From Haliotis asinina (Eukaryota > Mollusca > Gastropoda > Lepetellida > Haliotidae): a stretch of 64,000 bases of DNA. Both the position numbers and the translations under genes were made by a program. Of this stretch, positions 1 to 62,946 are shown one piece after another. The stretch spans positions 12,034,969 to 12,098,968 of the forward strand of contig NC_090288.1 of assembly GCF_037392515.1 (NCBI RefSeq), read 5' to 3'. The notes below the pieces were generated by a model that saw nothing but the letters and a program-made list of their open reading frames with translations, did no database searches and had not been told where the DNA came from. Position 1 is the stretch's first letter; each line of letters starts with the position of its first letter.

Positions 1-71
1 GTTCAGTGAACCTGATCTGCTTTCTGGCCAAGGCCTGATGAAATCGCCAGGGTCACCACACACGAGGACAA

Positions 72-177
72 TGAGTGAGTTAGTGAGTTTAGTTTTACGC
101 CGCTTTTAGCACTATTCCAGTAATATCAAGTCGGGGGACTCCAGAGATGAGCTTCTCACATTGTACTTACCTGGGGG
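72..177 (-). repeat. Truncated SINE tail, one per unit
   Basis: From GAGTGAG...GAGTTTAGTTTTACGCCGC through ATTCCAGTAATATCAAG to ACATTGTACTTACCTGGGGG, this is the reverse strand of the 3' part of the tRNA-derived SINE common in abalone (from memory). The tRNA-like head is missing. Equivalent copies start at 4345, 8623, 12915, 17219, 21497, 25774, 30049, 34322, 38591, 42862, 47133, 57418 and 61708, each about 106 bp. The insertion predates array growth since every unit has it at the same place. The 5' end of the remnant contains the donor of exon A. Confidence 0.8.
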
Positions 178-351
178 AAGTTACTGAAAAGCCTCAAGTT
201 GACTTTGTGCTTCCTTATATTTGAGACAAACTAGGATATAGGTTGACCGTGTAATAATGACGACGATAATCATAATAAGAACAACAATGGTGCACGTGTA
301 TAGCATTATAACTCTTGTGTTGCTAATATAAGCAAGAATCGTGATGACCAT
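171..351 (-). pseudogene. Orphan exon A of the array gene (rest lies outside the window)
   Basis: This exon A (ATG at 351, donor CAG|GTAAGT after 171) belongs to a gene copy whose exons B and C would lie left of the window. It has the short form, one codon less in the hydrophobic stretch, and an in-frame TAA where open copies have TAT (Gln-Tyr becomes Gln-stop), six codons before the donor. It is therefore grouped with the copies at both edges of the array and not with the core. Confidence 0.45.
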
Positions 352-1241: not shown

Positions 1242-1247
1242 TTTATT
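1242..1247 (-). terminator. Poly(A) signal AATAAA of the array gene
   Basis: TTTATT on the plus strand reads AATAAA on the gene strand, about 640 nt past the stop of exon C, and is the nearest clear signal. It is kept in every unit, for example 5515-5520, 9796-9801 and 54300-54305, either as AATAATAAATAAG or, with three bases fewer, AAATAAATAAG. Confidence 0.45.
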
Positions 1248-1870: not shown

Positions 1871-2939
1871 CGCTGGATGAGGAATCTACGAGAATACTCT
1901 CCTAAAGAAGGCAGCCACTCTCTTCAGCGCCTTCCTCACGGGATGAATATCCTCCACGAAGCTGTCGTCGTCCTCGTCCTCGTACACCCAGTAGTCACTG
2001 TCGTCGTCACTTGGGACAGGGTAATAGTCGGCATAGGTGATGGTAACCGGGGCAGGGAGTGTCTCACCGTGGTCAGGGCGGGCCCAGAAGGGGGTGAAAA
2101 CACGCAGGGGGTCGGGAGAGGGACTCGGGGACGAAGCCAAGGGACGCTACATCGGTGAGTGGGCAAGGTGGGAGAAAGGAGGGTCATTGGGTGAGGTTGA
2201 TAGGAGATTTTTAACGAAACAATATTAAGAAATGTCTGAGTGCATTGCCCCTGATCACACATTCTACTATCCAATGGCAAACATGCTGATAGATTGTCAG
2301 AAAGAAATGCTAATGTGTGAATGGGAGAGGGGTAGCCGGGGACAGACTTTCAGCACACCATAACAGAGTAAGTAATATATAACGTCCCGGGTGTGCATGA
2401 GACAGCTTCGACAAGGACTAGAGGAGCCAACGTTTCGCCCCAATCTGAAGGTCATGTAGATAAAATACATACACAGTCGAATTCCTCATCCAGCGACGGC
2501 CATAGACTAGCAGCAGGAGTGACGTGATACCGGATCATGTCTTCCCGTGCTGAAAATAACACAAACAACGCATTTACTGACACGACAAATATACGTACAG
2601 TGGAACTAAGGTGTTTTGGGGGCCGAGGAAACGATAGCGAGAAAACAGAGAGTGTTTGGGGGACACATATAGGCCACGGATACGCTTTAGAAGCATTAAA
2701 ATGGGCATTATAATCAGTTTTCATATATAATCCATCTAGTAGTGTAGCGATTATGCTCCGCATATTGGAAAGGAATGCTTTAAGAAAAAAATGTACCTAA
2801 TCCACGCCTTCGATCTACTAAAACGTCTATTTTCATTTAACAACATCCACCATCGTATGTAAAAACAAAAAAGCCCCCATTTCACTGATGGAAAAGACAT
2901 TAAAAACATCAATATTTCTAAATTTCTCCCAAATTGCAA

Positions 2940-3065
2940 ATGGCGGCTACTGGCAACCACATCCTTACCGTCAAACTACGGCCGCTTGCAGTAATAATGT
3001 ACGCTTTTAACACTTTAAAATACAACAAAAGCCTCCTTAAATACCTTGAATATGCAGCCGTGTAA
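2940..3065 (+). other. Short plus-strand frame of 41 codons starting in AAATGGCGGC
   Basis: MAATGNHILTVKLRPLAVIM... ends in TAA at 3065. The start lies in CAAATGGCGGCTAC, which matches the YY1-type motif often found over start codons in animal genes. Length is kept in the other units I compared, including the diverged copy at about 56,018, with a few residue changes. No domain is recognised. Confidence 0.15.
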
Positions 3066-3492
3066 ACATCTTGTCAGTAGATGATCTCAAAACGATGCTG
3101 TACTCAACGAAATGCAGAGCGGTAGCGAGCAAGAGCCAAAGTAGATCTGTTGGAAACAGAGGGGACCGTTGGCAACGACAACGGTAACTACATGGATACC
3201 AAGTCAGAACGAGGCGTCATCGAATGTGTACGGCAACGTCAAAGAGCCAGCAATAGTTGCATCTCATGGGGTCAAATATCTGGCGAGTTTAAGGTTTTAA
3301 ATCAATGAGTATATGTTGAAATGCTAGATGTATCATAGTTCACTGAAACGCCGTACGTGTTAGATGTTGAAAACACTCTATCAGCTCGGTGAAATTCATG
3401 TAAAGATTAGTATGAAGAAGGAAGGTAAAGTATTCGTTGTCAGTCAGAAAAATACAAGTCCTCCTATTCCCTTTTCGCTAATTCACATGTTT

Positions 3493-6156: not shown

Positions 6157-8902
6157 CTACGAGAATACTCTCCTAAAGAAGGCAGCCACTCTCTTCAGCG
6201 CCTTCCTCACGGGATGAATATCCTCCACGAAGCTGTCGTCGTCCTCGTCCTCGTACACCCAGTAGTCACTGTCGTCGTCACTTGGGACAGGGTAATAGTC
6301 GGCATAGGTGATGGTAACCGGGGCAGGGAGTGTCTCACCGTGGTCAGGGCGGGCCCAGAACGGGGTGAAAACACGCAGGGGGTCGGGAGAGGGACTCGGG
6401 GACGAAGCCAAGGGACGCTACATCGGTGAGTGGGCAAGGTGGGAGAAAGGAGGGTCATTGGGTGAGGTTGATAGGAGATTTTTAACGAAACAATATTAAG
6501 AAATGTCTGAGTGCATTGCCCCTGATCACACATTCTATGAGGTACTATCCAATGGCAAACATGCTGATAGATTGTCAGAAAGAAATGCTAATGTGTGAAT
6601 GGGAGAGGGGTAGCCGGGGACAGACTTTCAGCACACCATAACAGAGTAAGTAATATATAACGTCCCGGGTGTGCATGAGACAGCTTCGACAAGGACTAGA
6701 GGAGCCAACGTTTCGCCCCAATCTGAAGGTCATGTAGATAAAATACATACACAGTCGAATTCCTCATCCAGCGACGGCCATAGACTAGCAGCAGGAGTGA
6801 CGTGATACCGGATCATGTCTTCCCGTGCTGAAAATAACACAAACAACGCATTTACTGACACGACAAATATACGTACAGTGGAACTAAGGTGTTTTGGGGG
6901 CCGAGGAAACGATAGCGAGAAAACAGAGAGTGTTTGGGGGACACATATAGGCCACGGATACGCTTTAGAAGCATTAAAATGGGCATTATAATCAGTTTTC
7001 ATATATAATCCATCTAGTAGTGTAGCGATTATGCTCCGCATATTGGAAAGGAATGCTTTAAGAAAAAAATGTACCTAATCCACGCCTTCGATCTACTAAA
7101 ACGTCTATTTTCATTTAACAACATCCACCATCGTATGTAAAAACAAAAAAGCCCCCATTTCACTGATGGAAAAGACATTAAAAACATCAATATTTCTAAA
7201 TTTCTCCCAAATTGCAAATGGCGGCTACTGGCAACCACATCCTTACCGTCAAACTACGGCCGCTTGCAGTAATAATGTACGCTTTTAACACTTTAAAATA
7301 CAACAAAAGCCTCCTTAAATACCTTGAATATGCAGCCGTGTAAACATCTTGTCAGTAGATGATCTCAAAACGATGCTGTACTCAACGAAATGCAGAGCGG
7401 TAGCGAGCAAGAGCCAAAGTAGATCTGTTGGAAACAGAGGGGACCGTTGGCAACGACAACGGTAACTACATGGATACCAAGTCAGAACGAGGCGTCATCG
7501 AATGTGTACGGCAACGTCAAAGAGCCAGCAATAGTTGCATCTCATGGGGTCAAATATCTGGCGAGTTTAAGGTTTTAAATCAATGAGTGTATGTTGAAAT
7601 GCTAGATGTATCATAGTTCACTGAAACGCCGTACGTGTTAGATGTTGAAAACACTCTATCAGCTCGGTGAAATTCATGTAAAGATTAGTATGAAGAAGGA
7701 AGGTAAAGTATTCGTTGTCAGTCAGAAAAATACAAGTCCTCCTATTCCCTTTTCGCTAATTCACATGTTTCTATCTCCGACAGAGAAGTTGAAGTCTGCA
7801 CGCCTGTAGTGCCAGTAATAATATAGTAATGGTCACATGTACTTCACGATGAAAGACATCTGCGCAAAGCTGAAATACGGAGGACCTAATTTCTTGACTG
7901 GGACCATGTCTTGTCGTGGACACTGGATTTATTGACGGCTGAAGGCAAACGAAAGGAGAAAAGGAAGCAGATCCTGCTTTGAAGGCCGTTGTCATGGTTC
8001 CCGTCGGTGATAAAAAGAAGTGCATGTTGTGTTTATTGGGACCCCGAGTATTAAGTGGCAAACTGGTGAATGTCGGTAGTTGCTGACAATGTATAGTCAT
8101 CTGACGTGGGGAGCGTCTTGTGGTGTGCAGTTCATGGTGTATGTTTCAGCATGGTGGTAGCTGCACTAACTGCTGCGGAAAGACAAGCGCCGCACTTCGC
8201 CTCGGACATAGCTGGCCGATAAATGCGCGCTAATAAGGTGACAAGAGTGGTCTCCCTTTATGCATATAGGCCGCAAGCAAGCTGGGTACGAGAGACTGGT
8301 CCACTCATACCTCCCAAAATACACAATAAATGAAATCAATGAACCTGCTTGTACGGTTACATAGTCTATTGAGTACCCGATTCCATTAAGAAATTAACGC
8401 TACCTCTACAAAATATTTCCCCCAATATCCCCGTTCACGTGAAAGCCAAGGCAAGGTCCGTTCGTCTAATTGTAAGCCAAAGTGTTAGCTGCACTGCTCG
8501 TAAAGATGGAAATGTTCTGACAGTCACCACGGGTTGTCTGTGCATGTATTTGTTCAGTGAACCTGATCTGCTTTCTGGCCAAGGCCTGATGAAATCGCCA
8601 GGGTCACCACACACGAGGACAATGAGTGAGTTAGTGAGTTTAGTTTTACGCCGCTTTTAGCACTATTCCAGTAATATCAAGTCGGGGGACTCCAGAGATG
8701 AGCTTCTCACATTGTACTTACCTGGGGGAAGTTACTGAAAAGCCTCAAGTTGACTTTGTGCTTCCTTATATTTGAGACAAACTAGGATATAGGTTGACCG
8801 TGTAATAATGACGACGATAATCATAATAAGAACAACAATGGTGCACGTGTATAGCATTATAACTCTTATGTTGCTAATATAAGCAAGAATCGTGATGACC
8901 AT
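6157..8902 (-). pseudogene. Array gene copy 2 (exon A carries a stop)
   Basis: Exons: A 8902-8722, B 6827-6751, C 6417-6157. It has the same short exon A with TAA as copy 1, Phe in exon B, and Gly with Lys-Arg in exon C. Copies 1 and 2 form one sequence subgroup. Exons B and C are open, and an internal ATG in exon B could give a 108-residue product. Confidence 0.5.
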
Positions 8903-10448
8903 CTCCCAGTTCCCTAGGGCAGAAACGTGGTTTTTCTGTATCCACTTTCTGAACTAGATGATATACGATAAATAGCACATGTTAAGTCAAATCTTTGTGT
9001 TCAACGCCGTGACATTTTGAAGTTATCGCTTTGGGATAAATGTAGTTTCACTCACTCACTCATCCTCACACATACACACACACTATCACTCACTGATTTG
9101 AGAACTTAGACATGTATGTGTGTAGCAGTACTATTGTGGTTTCCGTGTCTAAACTTGCTAGCGGAGACTAGACCTGGTCGAACTGGCAGTACTTGTACCT
9201 CTGATTATGTTCGTATCTAAACACCACCTGGCTTTCTTGATCAGGTATTGCAGCCTATATTTATCCTGGAAGTAAAGGGTACCAATCCTGATCAAGTATC
9301 ATGCAAGTCACTAATTATTATGTCTATAGCCTGGATTGAAAATGAGCAGTCAACGAGGAACAAATCCCCTCTTCCAGTCCCATAGCGTGTATAAACACCC
9401 ACAGGACAAGGGGACGCTTAAACAGCTGACTGCACAATGGGAGACCACTCTCAGTTATTCACGTCGTGTGTAAGGTATAGTAAGTGAAGAGATCGTAAAA
9501 TATCCAGTCATCCGAAACCCTTTTTGTAGTCATGACTACACGCGATTACAGACTGTGATTTCCATCATAGGAAACGTGTAAAACACTCGACTAGAAGACA
9601 GGAACACAGCGGGATAGAGCAAATGACCCCTCAATATCTTCCTTAATTGTAATTAGTTAACTCTTATAGTAACTTCCAGATGTCTCATAAATACATTTAC
9701 TTCAGCCTCCTCTCCAGCTGTGTTGCTGTCTCCTAGCAAAGAATTGACCCAAAGAAGGAAGGAAAACAGACTCATGTGTATACCATTCAGTCTTATTTAT
9801 TTCCATATAATCAGGAAATAGAATGGCAAGTCCTGAAAGGGAGTCTCCAAATCGAGGCCAAAAGGGAAGCTCAGTCGTCTTATTAGAAGTGAAATAATCT
9901 TAGAAATGTCGGCCAAAAGGTATGCCAAAACATACAAGATCGAAAGGGGTGTGTCCAAAACTAAATCACAAGGGTGTAGCCAAAAGAGACCCAAAATGGG
10001 AAATGGTATACTGGACGAGCACCACAACACATCATCTCACACAACACACTCACACCCGATCAAACATGCAAAACACACCATCATAAACCATTCACACTCA
10101 CACGAAATAATACACGAAACAAATTCTTCTCCCAGCCTCTCTTTCTTTCTCGCTCTTTCCTTTTCACTCTCTCTCTCTCATTCTCTCTCTCTCCCTCTGT
10201 CAAACACACACACACACACACACACTCGTACATACACACATCAATAACACACACCGTCACACATATTATCACTATCTGTCTCATCTGCATGCAAATACAC
10301 TAACATGCACACCCACTCACACATCGTGTAGTCTTGCACTTATACACACATTCATCCAGTCACATATACACGTTTACCCTATGCACGCACACACACAGAC
10401 ACACACACGAGCGCGCACACATACACGCACGCACCCTGGATGAGGAAT

Positions 10449-13197
10449 CTACGAGAATACTCTCCTAAAGAAGGCAGCCACTGTCCTCAGCGCCTTCCTC
10501 ACGGGATGAATATCCTCCACGAAGCTGTCGTCGTCCTCGTCCTCGTACACCCAGTAGTCACTGTCGTCGTCACTTGGGACAGGGTAATAGTCGGCATAGG
10601 TGATGGTAACCGGGGCAGGGAGTGTCTCACCGTGGTCAGGGCGGGCCCAGAACGGGGTGAAAACACGCAGGGGGTCGGGAGAGGGACTCGGGGACGAAGC
10701 CAAGAGACGCTACATCGGTGAGTGGGCAGGGTGGGAGAAAGGAGGGTCATTGGGTGAGGTTGATAGGAGATTTTTAACGAAACAATGTTAAGAAATGTCT
10801 GAGTGCATTGCCCCTGGTCACACATTCTATGAGGTACTATCCAATGGCAAACATGCTGATAGATTGTCAGAAAGAAATGCTAATGTGTGAATGGGAGAGG
10901 GGTAGCCGGGGACAGACTTTCAGCACACCATAACAGAGTAAGTAATATATAACGTCCCTGGTGTGCATGAGACAACTTCGACAAGGACTAGAGGAGCCAA
11001 CTTTTCGCCCCAATCTGAAGGTCATCAGTGTAGATAAAATACATACACAGTCGGATTCCTCATCCAGCGACGGCCATAGACTAGCAGCAGGAGTGACGTG
11101 ATACCGGATCATGTCTTCCCGTGCTGAAAATAACACAAACAACGCATTTACTGGCACGCCAAATATACGTACAGTGGAACTAAGGTGTTTTGGGGGCCGA
11201 GGAAACGATAGCGAGAAAACAGAGAGTGTTTAGGGACACGTATAGGCCACGGATACGCTTTAGAAGCATTAAAATGGGCATTATAATCAGTTTTCATATA
11301 TAATCCGTCTAGTAGTGTAGCGATTATGCTCCGCATATTGGAAAGGAATGCGTTAAGAAAAAAATGCACCTAATCCACGCCTTAGATCTACTAAAACGTC
11401 TATTATCATTTAACAACATCCACCATCGTATGTTAAAACAAAACAGCCCCCATTTCACTGATAGAAAAGACATTAAAAACATCAATATTTCTAAATTTCT
11501 CCCAAATTGCAAATGGCGGCTACTGGCAACCACACCCTTACCGTCAAACTACGGCCGCTTGCCGTAATAATGTACGCTTTTAACACTTTAAAATACAACA
11601 AAAGCCTCCTTAAATACCTTGAATATGCAGCCGTGTAAACATCTTGTCAGTAAATGATCTCAAAACGATGCTGTACTCAACGAAATGCAGAGCGGTAGCG
11701 AGCAAGAGCCAAAGTGGATCTGTTGGAAACAGAGGGGACCGTTGGCAACGACAACGGTAACTACATGGATACCAAGTCAGAACGAGGCGTCATCGAATGT
11801 GTTCGGCAACGTCAAAGAGCCAGCAATAGTTGCATCTCAAGGGGTCAATTATCTGGCGAGTTTAAGGTTTTAAATCAATGAGTATATGTTGAAATGCTAG
11901 ATGTAGCATAGTTCACTGAAACGCCGTACGTGTTAGATGTTGAAAACACTCTATCAGCTCGGTGAAATTCATGTAAAGATTAGTATGAAGAAGGAAGGTA
12001 AAGTATTCGTTGTCAGTCAGAAAAATACAAGTCCTCCTATTCCCTTTTCGCTAATTCACATGTTTCTATCTCCGACAGAGAAGCTGAAGTCTGCACGCCT
12101 GTAGTGCCAGTAATAATATAGTAATGGTCACATGTACTTCACGATGAAAGACATCTGCGCAAAGGTGAAATACGGAGGACCTAATTTCTTGACTGGGACC
12201 ATTTCTTGTCGTGGACAGTGGATTTATTGACGGCTGAAGGCAAACGACAGAAGAAAAGGAAGCAGATCCTGCTTTGAAGGCTGTTGTCATGGTTCCCGTC
12301 GGTGATAAAAAGAAGTGCATGTTGTGTTTATTTGGACCCCGAGTATTAACTGGCAAACTGGTGAATGTCGGTAGTTGCTGACAATGTATAGTCATCTGAC
12401 GTGGGGAGCGTCTTGTGGTGTGCAGTTCATGGTGTATGTTTCAGCATGGTGGTAGCTGCACTAACTGCTGCGGAAAGACAAGCGCCGCACTTCGCCTCGG
12501 ACATAGCTGGCCGATAAATGCGCGCTAATAAGGTTACAAGAGTGGTCTCCCTTTAAGCATAGGCCGCAAGCAAGCTGGGTACGAGAGACTGGTCCACTCA
12601 TACCTCCCAAAATACACAATAAATGGAATCAATGGACCTGCTTGTACGGTTACATAGTCTATTGAGTACCCGAATCCATTGAGAAATTAACGCTACCTCT
12701 ACAAAATATTCCCCCAATATCCCCGTTCATGTGAAAGCCGAGGCAAGGTCCGTTCGTCTAATTGTAAGCCAAAGTGTTATCTGCACTGCTCGTAAAGACC
12801 GAAATGTTCTGACAGTCACCACGGGTTGTCTGTGCATGTATTTGTTCAGTGAACCTGATCTGCTTTCTGGCCAAGGCCTGATGAAATCGCCAGGGTCACC
12901 ACACACGAAGACAATGAGTGAGTTAGTGAGTTTAGTTTTACGCCGCTTTTAGCACTATTCCAGTAATATCAAGTCGTGGGACTCCAGAGATGAGCTTCAC
13001 ACATTGTACTTACCTGGGGGAAGATACTGAAAAGCCTCAAGTTGACTTTGTGCTTCCTTATATTTGAGACAAACTAGGATATAGGTTGGCCGTGTAATAA
13101 TGACGACGATAATCATAATGATAAGAACAACAATGGTGCACGTGTATAGCATGATAACTCTTATGTTGCTAATATAAGCAAGAATCGTGATGACCAT
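10449..13197 (-). CDS. Array gene copy 3: predicted three-exon gene, 173-residue membrane or secreted acidic/basic protein of unknown family
   Basis: Exon A is 13197-13014 (ATG, 61 codons plus 1 nt), exon B 11123-11047 (77 nt), exon C 10709-10449 (261 nt with stop). Donors are CAG|GTAAGT and TGT|GTATGT. Acceptors are GTTATTTTCAG and ACCGATGTAG after pyrimidine-rich tracts. Phases match at both joints (1, then 0). Product: hydrophobic segment at residues 14-35 followed by Arg36, Lys45 and Lys47 (signal anchor or signal peptide); a short exon B segment at 63-87; Ser-Pro repeats near 92-98; Tyr/Pro-rich TYADYYPVP near 124-132; an acidic stretch near 133-154; and a basic amphipathic end PVRKALRTVAAFFRRVFS. 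AATAAA on the minus strand at 9801-9796 would end a 3' UTR of about 650 nt. Copy-specific changes: Pro for Ser after the hydrophobic segment, Arg-Leu-Leu for Arg-Pro-Leu at the start of exon C, Arg-Thr in the helix. An upstream 5' exon cannot be excluded. I do not recognise the family. Exon C is the surest part. Confidence 0.6.
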
Positions 13198-14499: not shown

Positions 14500-14530
<31 letters not shown>

Positions 14531-14753: not shown

Positions 14754-17501
14754 CTACGAGAATACTCTCCTAAAGAAGGCAGCCACTGTCCTCAGCGCCT
14801 TCCTCACGGGATGAATATCCTCCACGAAGCTGTCGTCGTCCTCGTCCTCGTACACCCAGTAGTCACTGTCGTCGTCACTTGGGACAGGGTAATAGTCGGC
14901 ATAGGTGATGGTAACCGGGGCAGGGAGTGTCTCACCGTGGTCAGGGCGGGCCCAGAACGGGGTGAAAACACGCAGGGGGTCGGGAGAGGGACTCGGGGAC
15001 GAAGCCAAGGGACGCTACATCGGTGAGTGGGCAGGGTGGGAGAAAGGAGGGTCATTGGGTGAGGTTGATAGGAGATTTTTAACGAAACAATGTTAAGAAA
15101 TGTCTGAGTGCATTGCCCCTGGTCACACATTCTATGAGGTACTATCCAATGGCAAACATGCTGATAGATTGTCAGAAAGAAATGCTAATGTGTGAATGGG
15201 AGAGGGGTAGCCGGGGACAGACTTTCAGCACACCATAACAGAGTAAGTAATATATAACGTCCCTGGTGTGCATGAGACAACTTCGACAAGGACTAGAGGA
15301 GCCAACTTTTCGCCCCAATCTGAAGGTCATCAGTGTAGATAAAATACATACACAGTCGGATTCCTCATCCAGCGACGGCCATAGACTAGCAGCAGGAGTG
15401 ACGTGATACCGGATCATGTCTTCCCGTGCTGAAAATAACACAAACAACGCATTTACTGGCACGCCAAATATACGTACAGTGGAACTAAGGTGTTTTGGGG
15501 GCCGAGGAAACGATAGCGAGAAAACAGAGAGTGTTTAGGGACACGTATAGGCCACGGATACGCTTTAGAAGCATTAAAATGGGCATTATAATCAGTTTTC
15601 ATATATAATCCGTCTAGTAGTGTAGCGATTATGCTCCGCATATTGGAAAGGAATGCTTTAAGAAAAAAATGCACCTAATCCACGCCTTAGATCTACTAGA
15701 ACGTCTATTATCATTTAACAACATCCACCATCGTATGTAAAAACAAAAAAGCCCCATTTCACTGATGGAAAAGACATTAAAAACATCAATATTTCTAAAT
15801 TTCTCCCAAATTGCAAATGGCGGCTACTGGCAACCACACCCTTACCGTCAAACTACGGCCGCTTGCCGTAATAATGTACGCTTTTAACACTTTAAAATAC
15901 AACAAAAGCCTCCTTAAATACCTTGAATATGCAGCCGTGTAAACATCTTGTCAGTAAATGATCTCAAAACGATGCTGTACTCAACGAAATGCAGAGCGGT
16001 AGCGAGCAAGAGCCAAAGTGGATCTGTTGGAAACAGAGGGGACCGTTGGCAACGACAACGGTAACTACATGGATACCAAGTCAGAACGAGGCGTCATCGA
16101 ATGTGTTCGGCAACGTCAAAGAGCCAGCAATAGTTGCATCTCAAGGGGTCAATTATCTGGCGAGTTTAAGGTTTTAAATCAATGAGTATATGTTGAAATG
16201 CTAGATGTAGCATAGTTCACTGAAACGCCGTACGTGTTAGATGTTGAAAACACTCTATCAGCTCGGTGAAATTCATGTAAAGATTAGTATGAAGAAGGAA
16301 GGTAAAGTATTCGTTGTCAGTCAGAAAAATACAAGTCCTCCTATTCCCTTTTCGCTAATTCACATGTTTCTATCTCCGACAGAGAAGCTGAAGTCTGCAC
16401 GCCTGTAGTGCCAGTAATAATATAGTAATGGTCACATGTACTTCACGATGAAAGACATCTGCGCAAAGGTGAAATACGGAGGACCTAATTTCTTGACTGG
16501 GACCATTTCTTGTCGTGGACAGTGGATTTATTGACGGCTGAAGGCAAACGACAGAAGAAAAGGAAGCAGATCCTGCTTTGAAGGCCGTTGTCATGGTTCC
16601 CGTCGGTGATAAAAAGAAGTGCATGTTGTGTTTATTTGGACCCCGAGTATTAACTGGCAAACTGGTGAATGTCGGTAGTTGCTGACAATGTATAGTCATC
16701 TGACGTGGGGAGCGTCTTGTGGTGTGCAGTTCATGGTGTATGTTTCAGCATGGTGGTAGCTGCACTAACTGCTGCGGAAAGACAAGCGCCGCACTTCGCC
16801 TCGGACATAGCTGGCCGATAAATGCGCGCTAATAAGGTTACAAGAGTGGTCTCCCTTTAAGCATAGGCCGCAAGCAAGCTGGGTACGAGAGACTGGTCCA
16901 CTCATACCTCCCAAAATACACAATAAATGGAATCAATGGACCTGCTTGTACGGTTACATAGTCTATTGAGTACCCGAATCCATTGAGAAATTAACGCTAC
17001 CTCTACAAAATATTCCCCCAATATCCCCGTTCATGTGAAAGCCAAGGCAAGGTCCGTTCGTCTAATTGTAAGCCAAAGTGTTAGCTGCACTGCTCGTAAA
17101 GATGGAAATGTTCTGACAGTCACCACGGGTTGTCTGTGCATGTATTTGTTCAGTGAACCTGATCTGCTTTCTGGCCAAGGCCTGATGAAATCTCCAGGGT
17201 CACCACACACGAAGACAATGAGTGAGTTAGTGAGTTTAGTTTTACGCCGCTTTTAGCACTATTCCAGTAATATCAAGTCGTGGGACTCCAGAGATGAGCT
17301 TCACACATTGTACTTACCTGGGGGAAGATACTGAAAAGCCTCAAGTTGACTTTGTGCTTCCTTATATTTGAGACAAACTAGGATATAGGTTGACCGTGTA
17401 ATAATGACGACGATAATCATAATGATAAGAACAACAATGGTGCACGTGTATAGCATGATAACTCTTATGTTGCTAATATAAGCAAGAATCGTGATGACCA
17501 T
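14754..17501 (-). CDS. Array gene copy 4, open
   Basis: Exons: A 17501-17318, B 15428-15352, C 15014-14754. All three are open with intact splice sites and matching phases, predicting 173 residues. It has Ser after the hydrophobic segment (residue 37), Gly in the ARPDHGETL motif of exon C, and Arg-Thr in the C-terminal helix. Exons B and C are identical in protein to copy 3 apart from the start of exon C. Confidence 0.6.
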
Positions 17502-44670: not shown

Positions 44671-47415
44671 CTACGAGAATACTCTCCTAAAGAAGGCAGC
44701 CACTCTCTTCAGCGCCTTCCTCACGGGATGAATATCCTCCACGAAGCTGTCGTCGTCCTCGTCCTCGTACACCCAGTAGTCACTGTCGTCGTCACTTGGG
44801 ACAGGGTAATAGTCGGCATAGGTGATGGTAACCGGGGCAGGGAGTGTCTCAATGTGGTCAGGGCGGGCCCAGAACGGGGTGAAAACACGCAGGGGGTCGG
44901 GAGAGGGACTCGGGGACGAAGCCAAGGGACGCTACATCGGTGAGTGGGCAGGGTGGGAGAAAGGAGGGTCATTGGGTGAGGTTGATAGGAGATTTTTAAC
45001 GAAACAATATTAAGAAATGTCTGAGTGCATTGCCCCTGGCCATACATTCTATGAGGTACTATCCAATGGCAAACATGCTGATAGATTGTCAGAAAGAAAT
45101 GCTAATGTGTGAATGGGAGAGGGGTAGCCGGGGACAGACTTTCAGCACACCATAACAGAGTAAGTAATATATAACGTCCCGGGTGTACATGAGACAGCTT
45201 CGACAAGGACTAGAGGAGCCAGCGTTTCGCCCCAATCTGAAGGTCATGTAGATAAAATACATACACAGTCGGATTCCTCATCCAGCGACGGCCATAGACT
45301 AGCAGCAGGAGTGACGTGATACCGGATCATGTCTTCCCGTGCTGAAAATAACACAAACAACGCATTTACTGACACGACAAATATACGTACAGTGGAACTA
45401 AGGTGTTTTGGGGGCCGAGGAAACGATAGCGAGAAAACAGAGAGTGTTTGGGGGACACATATAGGCCACGGATACGCTTTAGAAGCATTAAAATGGGCAT
45501 TATAATCAGTTTTCATATATAATCCATCTCGTAGTGTAGCGATTATGCTCCGCATATTGGAAAGGAATGCTTTAAGAAAAAAATGCACCTAATCCACGCC
45601 ATAGATCTACTAGAACGTCTATTATCATTTAACAACATCCACCATCGTATGTAAAAACAAAAAAGCCCCATTTCACTGATAGAAAAGACATTAAAAACAT
45701 CAATATTTCTAAATTTCTCCCAAATTGCAAATGGCGGCTACTGGCAACCACACCCTTACCGTCAAACTACGGCCGCTTGCCGTAATAATGTACGCTTTTA
45801 ACACTTTAAAATACAACAAAAGCCTCCTTAAATACCTTGAATATGCAGCCGTGTAAACATCTTGTCAGTAGATGATCTCAAAACGATGCTGTACTCAACG
45901 AAATGCAGAGCGGTAGCGAGCAAGAGCCAAAGTGAATCTGTTGGAAACAGAGGGGACCGTTGGCAACGACAACGGTAACTACATGGATACCAAGTCAGAA
46001 CGAGGCGTCATCAAATGTGTTCGGCAACGTCAAAGAGCCAGCAATAGTTGCATCTCATGGGGTCAAATATCTGGCGAGTTTAAGGTTTTAAATCAATGAA
46101 TATATGTTGAAATGCTAGATGTACCATAGTTCACTGAAACGCCGTACGTGTTAGATGTTGAAAACACTCTATCAGCTCGGTGAAATTCATGTAAAGATTA
46201 GTATGAAGAAGGAAGGTAAAGTATTCGTTGTCAGTCAGAAAAATACAAGTCCTCCTATTCCCTTTTCGCTAATTCACATGTTTCTATCTCCGACAGAGAA
46301 GTTGAAGTCTGCACGCCTGTAGTGCCAGTAATAATATAGTAATGGTCACGTATACTTCACGATGAAAGACATCTGCGCAAAGGTGAAATACGGAGGACCT
46401 AATTCCTTGACTGGGACCATTTCTTGTCGTGGACAGTGGATTTATTGACGGCTGAAGGCAAACGACAGAAGAAAAGGAAGCAGATCCTGCTTTGAAGGCC
46501 GTTGTCATGGTTCCCGTCGGTGATAAAAAGAAGTGCATGTTGTGTTTATTTGGACCCCGAGTATTAACTGGCAAACTGGTGAATGTCGGTAGTTGCTGAC
46601 AATGTATAGTCATCTGACGTGGGGAGCGTCTTGTGGTGTGCAGTTCATGGTGTATGTTTCAGCATGGTGGTAGCTGCACTAACTGCTGCGGAAAGACAAG
46701 CGCCGCACTTCGCCTCGGACATAGCTGGCCGATAAATGCGCGCTAATAAGGTTACAAGAGTGGTCTCCCTTTATGCATAGGCCGCAAGCAAGCTGGGTAC
46801 GAGAGACTGGTCCACTCATACCTCCCAAAATACACAATAAATGGAATCAATGGACCTGCTTGTACGGTTACATAGTCTATTGAGTACCCGAATCCATTGA
46901 GAAATTAACGCTACCTCTACAAAATATTCCCCCAATATCCCCGTTCATGTGAAAGCCAAGGCAAGGTCCGTTCGTCTAATTGTAAGCCAAAGTGTTAGCT
47001 GCACTGCTCGTAAAGATGGAAATGTTCTGACAGTCACCACGGGTTGTCTGTGCATGTATTTGTTCAGTGAACCTGATCTGCTTTCTGGCCAAGGCCTGAT
47101 GAAATCTCCAGGGTCACCACACACGAAGACAATGAGTGAGTTAGTGAGTTTAGTTTTACGCCGCTTTTAGCACTATTCCAGTAATATCAAGTCGTGGGAC
47201 TCCAGAGATGAGCTTCACACATTGTACTTACCTGGGGGAAGATACTGAAAAGCCTCAAGTTGACTTTGTGCTTCCTTATATTTGAGACAAACTAGGATAT
47301 AGGTTGACCGTGTAATAATGACGACGATAATCATAATGATAAGAACAACAATGGTGCACGTGTATAGCATTATTATTCTTATGTTGCCAATATATGCAAG
47401 AATCGTGATGATCAT
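44671..47415 (-). CDS. Array gene copy 11, open, upstream region displaced by a transposon
   Basis: Exons: A 47415-47232, B 45341-45265, C 44931-44671. Exons B and C are core type. Exon A has private changes (MIITILAYIGNIRIIML) but stays open at full length. A 6-bp insertion upstream places an in-frame TAA directly before the ATG, so here this ATG is the only possible start in the frame. A CACTA transposon begins 400 bp upstream of the ATG (47,815), so any promoter farther away is now separated from the gene by 5.9 kb. Confidence 0.55.
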
Positions 47416-47596: not shown

Positions 47597-47597
<1 letters not shown>

Positions 47598-47670: not shown

Positions 47671-47674
<4 letters not shown>

Positions 47675-47814: not shown

Positions 47815-48199
47815 CACTGTAAAAAATCCTTAAAAATTACAGTTGTTTTTACCCGGTTTTCACCGTTGTTTCACTCATCTGGCCACCGTTATTGACCTTA
47901 CGGCTGATTTGCTGTTAGTATTACAGATCGTCTTGCGGGTTACGGTAGAAGTAACGTAAAGGTGACGTTTCGCATGCCATTATGGGATAGCATCCGGGTA
48001 ACTTCTACCGACGTGACAGGACGTTATTTGCAGCGTGGACCTTTGAAAAAATATCAAAATCGGTTGCATCATCTCTTGCAAAATACAGGTACCGACTTTA
48101 ATCCATGGAATATAATAGAGAGATACGAAAATGTTATGCTCAATGGTTCATTTTCTTGCCATAGTGTCAGTTGTGTCAGTGTTTAGCGATTTTGCTCAA
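47815..48199. other. Left terminal and subterminal region of the transposon
   Basis: No gene start is convincing before 48,200. The sequence is AT-rich at the tip, then has short related motifs around ACGGT/TTACGG (about 47,860-47,990), which may be subterminal transposase-binding repeats of the kind CACTA elements carry. A short open frame upstream of the zinc-finger region has no recognisable similarity. Confidence 0.4.
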
Positions 48200-52424: not shown

Positions 52425-52467
52425 ATGGACATTTCACAAACTTTGTATGAAACTAGTCATATTTTCC

Positions 52468-53092
52468 TTAACCAGGGTATGTCATTTGAAGATGTTGAAC
52501 TTCTGATTTTTCAGTTTAATGTTTTAGTAGCCGTGTTCCTTGTGTTTAGAATGGTTTGAATGTCCCATTATTTCAGTTTTGTCGCTTGCTAACAGACTTC
52601 AAGCAAAATGAAAGGCATGTCATGTTAGATTGTGTTACAAACATCTAGGTCATACAAAAATCTTACAGTGGTATTGATTGATCTTTTCATTTATTTTCTA
52701 AGAAATTCTGAAAACAGTGTCATGATATGATGAATGTCTGTAAGAGTCAGTTATGATGTACTTTGAAAATTAGGCGATATTCTTAACCATGGTGTTTGAA
52801 GATGTTGAACTTCTGATTTTTCAGTTTAATGTTTTAGAGGCAGTGTTTCCTTGTGTTTAGAATGGTTTGAATGTCCCATTATTTCAGTTTTGTCGCTTGC
52901 TAACAGACTTAAAGCAAAATGGAAGGCATGCCATGTTAGATTGTGTTACAAACATCTAGGTCATACAAAAATCTTACAGTGGTATTGATTGATCTTTTCA
53001 TTTATTTTCTAAGAAATTCTGAAAACAGTGTCATGATATGATGAATGTCTTTAAGAGTCAGTTTTGATGTACTTTGGAAATTAGGCGATATT
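52468..53092. repeat. Tandem duplication of about 310 bp within the transposon
   Basis: TTTGAAGATGTTGAACTTCTG occurs at 52,485 and again at 52,795. Similarity continues through CTTGCTAACAGACTT, CATCTAGGTCATACAAA and TTAGGCGATATTC. Copies 52,468-52,782 and 52,783-53,092 differ at roughly a dozen positions. They lie just after the last exon of the second gene and show no coding potential. Confidence 0.9.
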
Positions 53093-53743
53093 CCAAATAA
53101 TGTTTTAGGGACATGATCACCATATATTTCAAAACAACTTTTAATTTGACCTATTGAATATTTCAGAATTATAGACTGTTAATGATTAAGTTTAGCTTCA
53201 AGCTGATATCGTCAAATCACTGATGAAAACATTTTAGTCATGATGGAAAATATTAGTGAAATCAGTTAAAAGTGAATGGTTTTATGTTTTTAGTTTAGTT
53301 TCTGGTCAGGATCAACAACATTAATAATCTTCCACAAATGAGACAGTGTAATATGTAGGACATTTATCAATAAAGGATAAATACATTAAATGTTATTATA
53401 TTTGGTTGTATTTGCTCTTATTACTAATGGAATATGCAGCCATCTGCTTCACTTTATCTCCCATTAGTGTTTTAACCTACAAAGTCCAAGATCATCAGCA
53501 CATGAATGACAAGAACCAGTTTCTTACATGTGCACCCACTGGCATATTTTGTATATGCTCCATTGCCGCCATTTAACAGCCGTGGTTTGGATACCAGTCC
53601 TTTACTGTTATTTCAACGACTACCTGTAATCAAACGATTTTACAGATCTGAATAAGGTACAGTGTAAAAAACAGCAGTAAATGCCTGGCAACCCTGGTGC
53701 CAGTACTTTTAATGTTGTTTGAACAGGAATTTGTTTTACAGTG
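53093..53743. other. Right terminal region of the transposon
   Basis: AT-rich, with no gene seen. Near the tip, GTACAGTGTAAAAAACAG (about 53,658) repeats the terminal motif internally, which fits subterminal repeats of a CACTA element. The last bases are TTTTACAGTG. Confidence 0.6.
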
Positions 53744-54947: not shown

Positions 54948-57700
54948 CTACGAGAATACTCTCCTAAAGAAGGCAGCCACTCTCTTCAGCGCCTTCCTCA
55001 CGGGATGAGTATCCTCCACGAAGCTGTCGTCGTCCTCGTCCTCGTCCTCGTACACCCAGTAGTCACTGTCGTCGTCACTTGGGACAGGGTAATAGTCGGC
55101 ATAGGTGATGGTAACCGGGGCAGGGAGTGTCTCAATGTGGTCAGGGCGGGCCCAGAACGGGGTGAAAACACGCAGGGGGTCGGGAGAGGGACTCGGGGAC
55201 GAAGCCAAGGGACGCTACATCGGTGAGTGGGGAGGGTGGGAGAAAGGAGGGTCATTGGGTGAGGTTGATAGGAGATTTTTGACGAAACAATGTTAAGAAA
55301 TGTCTGAGTGCATTGCCCCTGGTCACACATTATGTGAGGTACTATCCAATGGCAAACATGCTGATAGATTGTCAGAAAGAAATGCTGATGTGTGGATGGG
55401 AGAGGGGTAGCCGGGGACAGACTTTCAGCACACCATAACAGAGTAAGTAATATATAACGTCCCTGGTGTGCATGAGACAACTTCGACAAGGACTAGAGGA
55501 GCCAGCGTTTCGCCCCAATCTGAAGGTCATGTAGATAAAATACATACACAGTCGGATTCCTCATCCAGCGACGGCCATAGACTAGCAGCAGGAGTGACGT
55601 GATACCGGATCATGTCTTCCCGTGCTGAAAATAACACAAACAACGCATTTACTGACACGCCAAATATACGTACAGTGGAACTAAGGTGTTTTGGGGGCCG
55701 AGGAAACGATAGCGAGAAAACAGAGAGTGTTTAGAGGACACGTATAGGCCACGGATACGCTTTAGAAGCATTAAAATGGGCATCATAATCAGTTTTCATA
55801 TATAATCCATCTCGTAGTGTAGCGATTATGCTCCGCATATTGGAAAGGAATGCGTTAAGAAAAAAATGTACCTAATCCACGCCATAGATCTACTAAAACG
55901 TCTATTATCATTTAACAACATCTACCATCGTATGTTAAAACAAAAAAGCCCCCTTTTCACTGATAGAAAAGACATTAAAAACATCAATATTTCTAAATTT
56001 CTCCCAAATTGCAAATGGCGGCTACTGGCAAACACACCCCTACAGTTAAACTACGGCCGGTTGCAGTAATAATGTACGCTTTTAACACTTTAAAATACAA
56101 CAAAAGCCTCCTTAAATACCTTGAATATGCAGCCGTGTAAACATCTTGTCAGTAGATGATCTCAAAACGATGCTGTACTCAACGAAATGCAGAGCGGTAG
56201 CGAGCAAGAGCCAAAGTGGATCTGTTGGAAACAGAGGGGACCGTTGGCAACGACAACGGTAACTACATGGATACCAAGTCAGAACGAGGCGTCATCGAAT
56301 GTGTTCGGCAACGTCAAAGAGCCAGCAATAGTTGCATCTCATGGGGTCAAATATCTGGCGAGTTTAAGGTTTTAAATCAATGAGTATATGTTGAAATGCT
56401 AGATGTATCATAGTTCACTGAAACGCCGTACGTGTTAGATGTTGAAAACACTCTATCAGCTCGGTGAAATTCATGTAAAGATTAGTTTGAAGAAGGAAGG
56501 TAAAGTATTCGTTGTCAGTCAGAAAAATACAAGTCCTCCTATTCCCTTTTCGCTAATTCACATGTTTCTATCTCCGACAGAGAAGTTGAAGTCTGCACGC
56601 CTGTAGTGCCAGTAATAATATAGTAATGGTCACATGTACTTCACGATGAAAGACATCTGCGCAAAGGTGAAATACGGAGGACCTAATTTCTTGACTGGGA
56701 CCATTTCTTGTCGTGGACACTGGATTTATTGACGGCTGAAGGCAAACGAAAGAAGAAAAGGAAGCAGATCCTGCTTTGAAGGCCGTTGTCATGGTTCCCG
56801 TCGGTGATGAAAAGAAGTGCATGTTGTGTTTATTTGGAAACAGAGTATTAACTGGCAAAGTGGTGAATGTCAGTAGTTGCTGACAATGTATAGTCATCTG
56901 ACGTGGGGAGCGTCTTGTGGTGTGCAGTTCATGGTGTATGTTTCAGCATGGTGGTAGCTGCACTAACTGCTGCGGAAAGACAAGCGCCGCACTTCGCCTC
57001 GGACATAGCTGGCCGATAAATGCGCGCTATTAAGGTGACAAGAGTGGTCTCCCTTTATGCATAGGCCGCAAGCAAGCTGGGTACGAGAGACTGGTCCACT
57101 CATACCTCCCAAAATACACAATAAATGAAATCAATGAACCTGCTTATACGGTTACATAATTTATTGAATACCCGATTCCATTAAGTAATGAACGCTACCT
57201 CTACAAAATATTTCCCCCAATATCCCCGTTCATGTGAAAGCCAAGGCAAGGTCCGTTCGTCTAATTGTAAGCCAAAGTGTTAGCTGCACTGCTCGTAAAG
57301 ACCGAAATGTTCTGACAGTCACCACGGGTTGTCTGTGCATGTATTTGTTCAGTGAACCTGATCTGCTTTCTGGCCAAGGCCTGATGAAATCGCCATGGTC
57401 ACCACACACGAGGACAATGAGTGAGTTAGTGAGTTTAGTTTTACGCCGCTTTTAGCACTATTCCAGTAATATCAAGCCGGGGGACTCCAGAGATGAGCTT
57501 CACACATTGTACTTACCCGGGGGAAGTTACTGAAAAGCCTCAAGTTGACTTTGTGCTTCCTTATATTTGAGACAAACTAGGATATAGGTTGACCGTGTAA
57601 TAATGACGACGATAATCATAATGATAAGAACAACAATGGTGCACGTGTATAGCATTATAAATCTTATGTTGCTAATATAAGCAAGAATCGTGATGATCAT
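54948..57700 (-). pseudogene. Array gene copy 12 (exon A carries a stop; exon C has a two-residue insertion)
   Basis: Exons: A 57700-57517, B 55624-55548, C 55214-54948. Exon A is full length (184 nt) but has the TAA before the donor, which here reads CGG|GTAAGT. Exon C is 6 bp longer than elsewhere: an extra Glu-Asp in the acidic stretch, by slippage in a GAGGAC repeat. It also has Thr for Ile before the C-terminal helix (DTHPV). Exons B and C are open and in phase, so an ATG in exon B could start a 110-residue form. Confidence 0.5.
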
Positions 57701-59237
57701 CTCCCAGTTCCCTAGGGCAGAAACGTGCTTTTTCTGTATCCACTTTCTGAACTAGATGATATACGATAAATAGCACATGTGAAGTCAAATCTTTGTGTTC
57801 AACGCCGTGACATTTTGAAGTTATCGCTTTGGGATAAATGTACTTTCACTCACTCACTCATCATCACACACACACACTATCACTCACTGATTTGAAAACT
57901 TAGACATGTATGTGTGTAGCAGTACTATTGTGGTTTCCGTGTCTAAACTTGCTAGCGGAGACTAGACCTGGTCGAACTGGCAGTACTTGTACGTCTAATT
58001 ATGTTCGTATCTAAACACCACCTGGCTTTCTTGATCAGGTATTGCAGCCTATATTTATCCTGGAAGTAAAGGGTACCAATCCTGTTCAAGTATCATGCAA
58101 GTCACTAATTATTATGTCTATTGCTTGGATTGAAAATGAGCAGTCAACGAGGAACAAATCCCCTCTTCCAGTCTCATAGCGTGTATAAACACCCACAGGA
58201 CAAGGGGACGCTTAAACAGCTGACTGCACAATGGGAGACCACTCTCAGTTATTCACGTCGTGTGTAAGGTATAGTAAGTGAAGTGATCGTAAAATATCCA
58301 GTCATCCGAAACCATTTTTGTAGTCATGACTACACGCGATTACAGACTGTGATTTCCATCATAGGAAACGTGTAAAACACTCGACTAGAAGACAGGAACA
58401 CAGCGGGATAGAGCAAATGACCCCTCAATATCTTCCTTAATTGTAATTAGTTAACTCTTATAGTAACTTCCAGATGTCTCATAAATACATTTACTTCAGC
58501 CTCCTCTCCAGCTGTGTTGCTGTCTCCTAGCAAAGAATTGACCCAAAGAAGGAAGGAAAACAGACTCATGTGTATACCATTCAGTCTTATTTATTTCCAT
58601 ATAATCAGGAAATAGAATGGCAAGTGCTGAAAGGGAGTCTCCAAATCGAGGCCAAAAGGGAAGCTCAGTCGTCTAGTTAGAAGTGAAATAATCTTAGAAA
58701 TGTCAGCCAAAAGGTATGCCAAAACATACAAGATCGAAAGGGGTGTGTCCAAAACTAAATCACAAGGGTGTAGCCAAAAGAGACCCAAAATGGGAAATGG
58801 TATACTGGACGAGCACCACAACACATCATCTCACACAACACACTCACACCCGATCAAACATGCAAAACACACCATCATAAACCATTCACACTCACACGAA
58901 ATAATACACGAAACAAATTCTTCTCCCAGCCTCTCTTTCTTTCTCGCTCTTTCCTTTTCACTCTCTCTCTCTCTCATTCTCTCTCTCTCTCTGTCAAACA
59001 CACACACACACACTCGTACATACACACACCAATAACACACACCGTCACACATAAAACCACTATCTGTCTCATCTGCATGCAAATACACTAACATGCACAC
59101 CCACTCACACATCGTGTACTCTTGCACTTATACACACATACATCCAGTCACATATACACGTTTACCCTATGCACACACACACACACAGACACACACACGA
59201 GCGCGCACACATACACGCACGCACCTGGATGAGGAAT

Positions 59238-61990
59238 CTACGAGAATACTCTCCTAAAGAAGGCAGCCACTGTCCTCAGCGCCTTCCTCACGGGATGAAT
59301 ATCCTCCACGAAGCTGTCGTCGTCCTCGTCCTCGTACACCCAGTAGTCACTGTCGTCGTCACTTGGGACAGGGTAATAGTCGGCATAGGTGATGGTAACC
59401 GGGGCAGGGAGTGTCTCACCGTGGTCAGGGCGGGCCCAGAACGGGGTGAAAACACGCAGGGGGTCGGGAGAGGGACTCGGGGACGAAGCCAAGGGACGCT
59501 ACATCGGTGAGTGGGCAGGGTGGGAGAAAGGAGGGTCATTGGGTGAGGTTGATAGGAGATTTTTAACGAAACAATGTTAAGAAATGTCTGAGTGCATTGC
59601 CCCTGATTACACATTCTATGAGGTACTATCCAATGGCAAACATGCTGATAGATTGTCAGAAAGAAATGCTAATGTGTGAAAGGGAGAGGAGTAGCCGGGG
59701 ACAGACTTTCAGCACACCATAACAGAGTAAGTAATATATAACGTCCCGGGTGTGCATGAGACAACTTCGACAAGGACTAGAGGAGCCAACTTTTCGCCCC
59801 AATCTGAAGGTCATCAGTGTAGATAAAATACATACACAGTCGGATTCCTCATCCAGCGACGGCCATAGACTAGCAGCAGGAGTGACGTGATACCGGATCA
59901 TGTCTTCCCGTGCTGAAAATAACACAAACAACGCATTTACTGACACGCCAAATATACGTACAGTGGAACTAAGGTGTTTTGGGGGCCGAGGAAACGATAG
60001 CGAGAAAACAGAGAGTGTTTAGGGTACACGTATAGGCCACAGATACGCTTTAGAAGCATTAAAATGGGCATCATAATCAGTTTTCATATATAATCCGTCT
60101 AGTAGTGTAGCGATTATGCTCCGCATATTGGAAAGGAATGCGTTAAGAAAAAAATGTACCTAATCCAAGCCTTAGATCTACTAAAACGTCTATTATCATT
60201 TAACAACATCCACCATCGTATGTTAAAACAAAAAAGCCCCAATTTCACTGATAGAAAAGACATTAAAAACATCAATATTTCTAAATTTCTCCCAAATTGC
60301 AAATGGCGGCTACTGGCAACCACACCCTTACCGTCAAACTACGGCCGCTTGCCGTAATAATGTACGCTTTTAACACTTTAAAATACAACAAAAGCCTCCT
60401 TAAATACCTTGAATATGCAGCCGTGTAAACATCTTGTCAGTAGATGATCTCAAAACGATGCTGTACTCAACGAAATGCAGAGCGGTAGCGAGCAAGAGCC
60501 AAAGTGAATCTGTTGGAAACAGAGGGGACCGTTGGCAACGACAACGGTAACTACATGGATACCAAGTCAGAACGAGGCGTCATCGAATGTGTTCGGCAAC
60601 GTCAAAGAGCCAGCAATAGTTGCATCTCATGGGGTCAAATATCTGGCGAGTTTAAGGTTTTAAATCAATGAGTATATGTTGAAATGCTAGATGTATCATA
60701 GTTCACTGAAACGCCGTACGTGTTAGATGTTGAAAACACTCTATCAGCTCGGTGAAATTCATGTAAAGATTAGTTTGAAGAAGGAAGGTAAAGTATTCGT
60801 TGTCAGTCAGAAAAATACAAGTCCTCCTATTCCCTTTTCGCTAATTCACATGTTTCTATCTCCGACAGAGAAGTTGAAGTCTGCACGCCTGTAGTGCCAG
60901 TAATAATATAGTAATGGTCACATGTACTTCACGATGAAAGACATCTGCGCAAAGGTGAAATACGGAGGACCTAATTTCTTGACTGGGACCATTTCTTGTC
61001 GTGGACACTGGATTTATTGACGGCTGAAGGCAAACGACAGAAGAAAAGGAAGCAGATCCTGCTTTGAAGGCCGTTGTCATGGTTCCCGTCGGTGATAAAA
61101 AGAAGTGCATGTTGTGTTTATTTGGACCCCGAGTATTAACTGGCAAACTGGTGAATGTCGGTAGTTGCTGACAATGTATAGTCATCTGACGTGGGGAGCG
61201 TCTTGTGGTGTGCAGTTGATGGTGTATGTTTCAGCATGGTGGTAGCTGCACTAACTGCTGCGGAAAGACAAGCGCCGCACTTCGCCTCGGACATAGCTGG
61301 CCGATAAATGCGCGCTAATAAGGTGACAAGAGTGGTCTCCCTTTATGCATATAGGCCGCAAGCAAGCTGGGTACGAGAGACTGGTCCACTCATACCTCCC
61401 AAAATACACAATAAATGAAATCAATGAACCTGCTTGTACGGTTACATAGTCTATTGAGTACCCGATTCCATTAAGAAATTAAGGCTACCTCTACAAAATA
61501 TTTCCCCCAATATCCCCGTTCATGTGAAAGCCAAGGCAAGGTCCGTTCGTCTAATTGTAAGCCAAAGTGTTAGCTGCACTGCTCGTAAAGACCGAAATGT
61601 TCTGACAGTCACCACGGGTTGTCTGTGCATGTATTTGTTCAGTGAACCTGATCTGCTTTCTGGCCAAGGCCTGATGAAATCGCCATGGTCACCACACACG
61701 AGGACAATGAGTGAGTTAGTGAGTTTAGTTTTACGCCGCTTTTAGCACTATTCCAGTAATATCAAGCCGGGGGACTCCAGAGATGAGCTTCACACATTGT
61801 ACTTACCCGGGGGAAGTTACTGAAAAGCCTCAAGTTGACTTTGTGCTTCCTTATATTTGAGACAAACTAGGATATAGGTTGACCGTGTAATAATGACGAC
61901 GATAATCATAATGATAAGAACAACAATGGTGCACGTGTATAGCATTATAAATCTTATGTTGCTAATATAAGCAAGAATCGTGATGATCAT
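59238..61990 (-). pseudogene. Array gene copy 13 (exon A carries a stop)
   Basis: Exons: A 61990-61807, B 59912-59836, C 59498-59238. Exon A is full length with the TAA and the CGG|GTAAGT donor, as in copy 12. Exon C has Gly at the Gly/Ile site and Arg-Thr in the helix, as in copies 3 and 4. Exons B and C are open. This is the last copy with exons B and C. The next unit is cut off before reaching them. Confidence 0.5.
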
Positions 61991-62946
61991 CTCCCAGTTC
62001 CCTAGGGCAGAAACGTGCTTTTTCTGTATCCACTTTCTGAACTAGATGATATACGATAAATAGCACATGTGAAGTCAAATCTTTGTGTTCAACGCCGTGA
62101 CATTTTGAAGTTATCGCTTTGGGATAAATGTACTTTCACTCACTCACTCATCATCACACACACACACTATCACTCACTGATTTGAAAACTTAGACATGTA
62201 TGTGTGTAGCAGTACTATTGTGGTTTCCGTGTCTAAACTTGCTAGCGGAGACTAGACCTGGTCGAACTGGCAGTACTTGTACGTCTGATTATGTTCGTAT
62301 CTAAACACCACCTGGCTTTCTTGATCAGGTATTGCAGCCTATATTTATCCTGGAAGTAAAGGGTACCAATCCTGTTCAAGTATCATGCAAGTCACTAATT
62401 ATTATGTCTATTGCCTGGATTGAAAATGAGCAGTCAACGAGGAACAAATCCCCTCTTCCAGTCTCATAGCGTGTATAAACACCCACAGGACAAGGGGACG
62501 CTTAAACAGCTGACTGCACAATGGGAGACCACTCTCAGTTATTCACGTCGTGTGTAAGGTATAGTAAGTGAAGAGATCGTAAAATATCCAGTCATCCGAA
62601 ACCATTTTTGTAGTCATGACTACACGCGATTACAGACTGTGATTTCCATCATAGGAAACGTGTAAAACACTCGACTAGAAGACAGGAACACAGCGGGATA
62701 GAGCAAATGACCCCTCAACATCTTCCTTAATTGTAATTAGTTAACTCTTATAGTAACTTCCAGATGTCTCATAAATACATTTACTTCAGCCTCCTCTCCA
62801 GCTGTGTTGCTGTCTCCTAGCAAAGAATTGACCCAAAGAAGGAAGGAAAACAGACTCATGTGTATACCATTCAGTCTTATTTATTTCCATATAATCAGGA
62901 AATAGAATGGCAAGTGCTGAAAGGGAGTCTCCAACTCGGGGCCAAA

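Follow-up and report, generated by a model that had tools for sequence, protein, structure and literature searches.

Protein-coding genes in more than 100 near-identical tandem copies are uncommon, and where they do occur an extreme need for dosage or a genomic conflict is often involved. In this article, I will discuss such a family on chromosome C9 of the abalone Haliotis asinina, starting from a 64,000-nt stretch of DNA (C9:12034969-12098968, hereafter the window) within a single 1.14-Gb assembly. The closest described counterpart is human RS447, reported as a 4746-bp unit with the 1593-bp USP17 open reading frame (ORF) intact in 20 of 23 chromosome-4 units; its copy number is estimated at 20 to 103, it occupies blocks on both chromosome 4 and chromosome 8, and the chromosome-4 copies are closely related to each other (PMC2874809). 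Similarly, the human macrosatellites TAF11-Like, PRR20, SST1, ZAV and D4Z4 are reported as large-unit arrays that are long and polymorphic, with expression known for several (PMC3018141), and genes or repeated exons are reported in 53 of a further 96 human arrays whose units exceed 2 kb (PMC2588610). Within the abalones themselves, the acrosomal cluster of lysin, sp18 and their paralogs is reported as a tandem gene array of four paralogs with recurrent positive selection (PMC9022041).

Set beside these, the abalone family is probably a gene-bearing megasatellite, that is, an array in which each 3.3-4.4 kb unit would carry a self-contained three-exon gene held under long-term purifying selection. 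Its structure would place it with RS447/USP17, since kilobase-scale, near-identical units arranged head to tail, an ORF intact in most of them and several separate blocks are all present. The two differ in that USP17 is a deubiquitinase whereas the abalone product is a 120-residue orphan encoded by three exons; in that RS447 varies in copy number between people and has reported expression, whereas the abalone arrays are compared by structure within one assembly; and in that unit length differs between the abalone arrays and their divergence reaches 28%. Long arrays of large units are likewise shared with the human macrosatellites, but the abalone family occupies seven places on one chromosome. 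The acrosomal cluster is found in the same genus and also consists of tandem genes, but it is not a homogeneous array as this one is; lysin, sp18 and their paralogs are not among the two protein clusters matched in the database search described below, and no direct sequence comparison with them was made.

Array layout and gene structure

When one unit is compared with the window by BLASTN, head-to-tail units spaced 4.27-4.30 kb are recovered over positions 1-62946, their gene regions differing from each other by 0-2.8%, and this 12-Mb array extends a further ~64 kb beyond the left edge of the window. The sequence-only reading of this DNA had proposed a satellite-like tandem array with one three-exon gene per ~4.27 kb unit on the minus strand, which is borne out in the 13 window units, "satellite-like" being right in the megasatellite sense. 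In 13 window copies exon 2 is paired with exon 3, the splice sites being canonical and the joint in phase (Table 1). Nine stretches were aligned, from the seven C9 places (the 12-Mb array giving two) and from contig C92; identity peaks at 12366-12246, at 11801-11618, in exon 2 and in exon 3, drops in the introns and climbs at exon borders. The island at 11801-11618 terminates in ATGTTTACACGGCTGCATATTCAAG followed by GTATTT, an eight-codon exon in phase with exon 2, and the conserved first exon is probably this one (11642-11618), which precedes exon 2 by about 500 nt.

Joining MFTRLHIQ to exons 2 and 3 gives a product of 120 residues with no hydrophobic N-terminus, and all 13 window copies keep this frame open across exon 3. 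Across eight sampled groups 48 copies were assembled, a set that excludes copies truncated at the end of a fragment, the 14.64 Mb copy, the L016 copies that overlap the window, and L001-L008, which are window DNA again. All 48 have canonical dinucleotides (GT, AG) at their four splice positions and 47 reach the conserved C-terminus in frame, the 48th being without the last residues; 42 products have 120 residues, four have 122 and two have 116, one of the latter through an in-frame deletion and the other through the loss of the last residues. Exons 1 and 2 lie ~430-520 nt apart in the assembled copies and further apart in the 14.64 Mb copy, whose intron 1 is longer than the limit set and which is open across the 332 nt collected. 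Met-13, within exon 2, is an unlikely start because it is replaced by Val in the 13.47 Mb array and by Ile in Haliotis rufescens. The three-exon gene of the array thus assembled looks real, and no match to a known non-coding RNA was returned by Rfam at gathering scores.

Relatives and relics

A protein search over 5.8 billion proteins, sensitive only to relatives sharing short exact words, returned two clusters, one from H. asinina with 13 members and one from H. rufescens with 26, each from one contig. Two window copies encode a 120-residue product identical, N-terminus included, to the NCBI H. asinina uncharacterized protein P0001, while H. rufescens P0002 (LOC125376035 isoform X1, 140 residues) is 74-76% identical and has a different predicted N-terminus; by this resemblance P0001 and P0002 are the same gene as that of the window array, and neither bears a functional name. 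No relative outside Haliotis was found by this short-exact-word search, Pfam gave no match at E up to 1 and, with the limit relaxed to 10, a single weak one (0.14) for one of the five members, and PDB offered no relation to the 120-residue protein, in agreement with the earlier description of the gene as uncharacterised and of no known family. A literature search of titles and abstract starts likewise found no publication on these arrays or this gene, and among the papers searched none contained LOC125376035.

A genome search with the pattern of the exon 1-exon 2 joint found a single place, on C14, where 0.02 were expected and a reversed control gave none. At C14:5337500-5347400 (L035), three decayed exon 2 relics lie among degenerate repeats of ~250 bp. 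In two of the three, the ~495-nt intron is missing and exon 2 is joined directly to exon 1 sequence, which supports the joint as it is drawn here, although a relative lacking the intron would give the same picture.

The hydrophobic exon proposed earlier

The first exon originally assigned to this gene was a different one, a hydrophobic ATG exon at 13197-13015 with a GTAAGT donor, and if that were correct the product would be a 173-residue single-pass membrane protein. The underlying count was accurate: nine of the 13 full window models have this exon open and its donor in phase with exon 2, a TAA closing the other four (nine of 14 when sites are counted, the 14th lying in a unit cut by the window edge). 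However, no conserved hydrophobic N-terminal exon was found at the seven other sampled places, six on C9 plus contig C92 (BLASTN, E 1e-3), the exon being detected only in the 12-Mb array whereas exons 2 and 3 and the short element ahead of them are present at every sampled place, and in the units sampled upstream of the window it is out of phase with its own donor or closed in 15 of 15, a 4-nt insertion being visible. In addition, it is more variable across the 12 complete window units (11 of 183 sites) than the introns are (21 of 494 and 13 of 337), its donor sits at the edge of a dispersed repeat of ~100 bp, and it is absent from both NCBI proteins found. The evidence favors the 120-residue protein beginning MFTRLHIQ, without a hydrophobic N-terminus, and the membrane-protein model is scarcely credible. 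Among the three features that had been fitted to one gene, exons 2 and 3 stand and the hydrophobic exon does not; of the two joints then called in phase, the one between exons 2 and 3 holds in 13 units, while the other belongs to an exon that is not of the gene. The ~100-bp repeat itself spans ~12911-13022, lies at the same place in the other window units and recurs in L017, L018, L019 and L028, stretches in which no gene exon was found.

Selection and concerted evolution

Selection was assessed from the ratio of non-synonymous to synonymous divergence (dN/dS) between arrays. Among the 28 pairs of eight group representatives, the 26 with dS above zero give dN/dS of 0.05-0.29, and between the window and the 14.8 Mb array 23 of 36 changes are synonymous, against a neutral expectation of 25.6% (P ~1.5e-6). 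Scans passing only windows that are stop-free in five compared arrays were run on both strands and in all frames, with 50 codons over 12691-9000 and with 25 codons over 12691-10291. Of the 20 windows passed by the longer scan, the eight lowest (0.07-0.19) are all in the exon 3 frame, the ninth (0.53) overlaps exon 2 and the remainder are at least 0.80; in the shorter scan the exon 2 frame stands at 0.03-0.04 (7 to 10 synonymous changes and 1 non-synonymous), exon 3 and its antisense shadow are also low, the next-lowest values, 0.37-0.45 in plus-strand windows near 11702-11831, are taken as weak, and no window in the upstream islands is comparably low. The possibility of a further gene, whether plus-strand or within the islands, was rejected, as in these scans strong constraint was confined to the frames of exons 2 and 3 and to the antisense shadow of the latter. 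Whether exon 1 has a coding extension on its 5' side was also considered; the upstream frame stays open, and hydrophobic, in several arrays, yet it has a stop in the A12up stretch, no Met in the translated pieces and dN/dS of 0.83-0.98 in 50-codon windows, and it is treated as untranslated region (UTR) or promoter.

The family is much larger than the window. Of 513 first-look candidates in the protein search of the genome, 150 were scored, and these yield at least 150 exon-3 places, at least 144 of them at seven locations on C9 and at least 6 on C92, a 34-kb contig, so that the high copy number suggested from the window alone is upheld. Among the matches listed, the C9 places number at least 8 at 4.50-4.54 Mb, at least 33 at 4.93-5.05 Mb, at least 28 at 11.97-12.10 Mb, at least 40 at 13.17-13.30 Mb, at least 15 at 13.46-13.52 Mb, at least 1 at 14.64 Mb and at least 19 at 14.79-14.86 Mb. 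Unit spacing depends on the array and runs from ~3.3 to 4.4 kb; in C9:14827552-14834631, exon-3 copies stand ~2.27 kb apart amid units of ~3.96 kb, and shortened units therefore exist. Gene regions differ by 0-3.4% within an array and by 4.9-28.5% between arrays, the one measured C92 copy being 0.4-0.9% away from the 4.5 Mb array, and in a midpoint-rooted tree the copies cluster by array, although the node uniting all 12-Mb copies is supported at just 0.2 and, relative to their upstream neighbors, the window copies by themselves are not monophyletic. Uniformity within arrays and divergence between them is, as read from these comparisons, the pattern of concerted evolution, and unequal exchange or gene conversion would be homogenizing each array.

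Several points weigh against the megasatellite reading. The 5' end of the gene is uncertain, and the N-terminus of the H. rufescens model differs, apparently because it includes part of the intron that precedes exon 2; the relics on C14, being decayed, could derive from an intron-less relative and not from a processed transcript; and the two representative pairs with dS of zero carry 2 and 3 non-synonymous differences. When variants within arrays are counted in the 120-residue copies, the 12-Mb array (23 copies) has 5 synonymous and 11 non-synonymous, which fits the neutral ratio of 2.9 to 1 (P = 0.39), the window by itself (12 copies) has 1 and 6, and the 4.9-Mb array (11 copies) has 2 and 3. 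No constraint is visible in recent variation, and single copies may therefore be free to drift. Purifying selection is visible across the age of the arrays, not among sister units.

This agreement with the neutral ratio would also suit a neutral or selfish megasatellite that has spread by its own recombination, with few copies needed and most units passengers; young copies could inherit intact frames from a recent master, and arrays of several unit lengths all persist. However, every sampled array keeps the gene intact at synonymous divergence of up to 0.35, whereas a passenger gene would be expected to be dead in some arrays, H. rufescens likewise has many members, and the 48 copies read include no badly broken one. 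I regard the selfish explanation as possible but doubtful and continue to favor a gene under long-term purifying selection.

What the copies are for is a separate matter. It would be a rather speculative step to suppose that a Haliotis-specific orphan gene was amplified into arrays of at least 150 copies, mostly on a single chromosome, and apparently kept so in at least two species, as dosage of this small protein was itself selected, with germline or sex-linked conflict on that chromosome as a possible cause. Less probable still is that the family is an ampliconic conflict gene whose copy number is driven by germline or sex-linked conflict, as in Stellate/Su(Ste) of Drosophila and Slx/Sly of mouse. 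Of the 150 places scored, 144 are on C9 and the other six on C92, whose one measured copy is close in sequence to the 4.5 Mb array, but the protein is under purifying selection and does not evolve rapidly, and with 363 of 513 candidates unscored confinement to C9 is unproven; the literature search, within the listed titles and abstract starts, found nothing on abalone sex chromosomes.

Protein properties

The 120-residue protein is acidic overall, with an isoelectric point of 4.6, and its charges are sharply divided: residues 80-101 hold 12 Asp/Glu and no Lys/Arg, and residues 102-120 hold six Lys/Arg and no Asp/Glu. The latter are predicted to form a cationic amphipathic helix whose helix moment was matched by 0.1-0.6% of shuffles in three variants (0.1% for H. 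asinina, 0.6% for H. rufescens), and a structure prediction from a two-row alignment, with a mean predicted local distance difference test score (pLDDT) of 52, made only residues 103-119 helical, at low confidence. No signal peptide is apparent by eye in the 120-residue model, whose 5' end is not fixed. The protein may act inside the cell, with its C-terminal helix perhaps serving to dock it to a membrane or to a partner, and the neighboring acidic segment DDDSDYWVYEDED perhaps masking or tuning that helix; my best guess, offered with low confidence, is a small intracellular protein with a docking helix that is charge-masked.

The same division of charges, with a cationic amphipathic helix of high moment following an acidic segment, could be expected of an antimicrobial peptide precursor in which the acidic segment neutralizes the C-terminal helix until cleavage releases it, and multicopy defense genes are common. 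Such a precursor is nevertheless very improbable here, given that a signal peptide is not apparent by eye in the 120-residue model and that the helix is conserved instead of diversifying, and the intracellular docking protein remains the preferred, if tentative, interpretation.

Other features of the window

The only interruption of the window array is a 5.9 kb insert at 47815-53743, which starts CACTGTAAAA and ends TTTTACAGTG with TT flanking both ends, termini such as a CACTA/EnSpm-like DNA transposon would have. Its ORFs are short, the four scanned giving no Pfam family above cut-off, and it contains a direct duplication of 311 bp (96% matches) at 52485-53093. The distal island upstream of the gene (12366-12246), for which frames were translated in seven of the nine aligned stretches, contains what are presumably FOX-, GATA- and HNF1-like sites, which would fit an enhancer.

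Table 1. Coordinates of gene copies and unit features, numbered within the window; gene copies run from ATG to stop and copy 3 is the type unit.
Feature	Position	Strand	Evidence and remarks
Gene copy 1	1886..3069	-	BLASTN units and copy assembly
Gene copy 2	6157..7347	-	BLASTN units and copy assembly
Gene copy 3 (type unit)	10449..11642	-	BLASTN units and copy assembly
Gene copy 4	14754..15946	-	BLASTN units and copy assembly
Gene copy 5	19034..20224	-	BLASTN units and copy assembly
Gene copy 6	23312..24501	-	BLASTN units and copy assembly
Gene copy 7	27587..28776	-	BLASTN units and copy assembly
Gene copy 8	31860..33049	-	BLASTN units and copy assembly
Gene copy 9	36129..37318	-	BLASTN units and copy assembly
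Gene copy 10	40400..41589	-	BLASTN units and copy assembly
Gene copy 11	44671..45860	-	BLASTN units and copy assembly
Gene copy 12	54948..56144	-	BLASTN units and copy assembly; 122 residues, two additional acidic residues
Gene copy 13	59238..60432	-	BLASTN units and copy assembly
Coding exon 1, type unit	11618..11642	-	ATGTTTACA...CAAG, encoding MFTRLHIQ; donor GTATTT; in 9 of 9 aligned stretches
Exon 2 (77 nt), type unit	11047..11123	-	Acceptor TTTCAG, donor GTATGT
Exon 3, coding part and stop (261 nt), type unit	10449..10709	-	Acceptor ATGTAG; alignment and lowest dN/dS among the 50-codon windows passed
AATAAA, probable poly(A) signal of the 3' UTR	9796..9801	-	Identical in nine aligned stretches
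Conserved stretch directly upstream of exon 1 (5' UTR and/or promoter)	11643..11801	-	79-94% mean identity per 25-nt step; without strong coding signal
Conserved non-coding island, possible enhancer or distal promoter	12246..12366	.	81-91% mean identity; no low dN/dS window
Hydrophobic exon 1 proposed earlier, rejected for the gene	13015..13197	-	BLASTN, upstream units, dispersed repeat

Perspective

Taken as a working unit, each repeat would comprise the upstream islands as a probable promoter, the MFTRLHIQ exon, the 77-nt exon, the terminal exon and a poly(A) signal, and if the units are transcribed the many copies would jointly give a high dose of the protein. The family amounts to a large and unexplained gene set on one abalone chromosome, with no relatives found beyond one genus, and since its units have diverged by up to 28% between arrays while the protein has stayed nearly fixed, it would offer a clean system in which to follow concerted evolution and purifying selection together.

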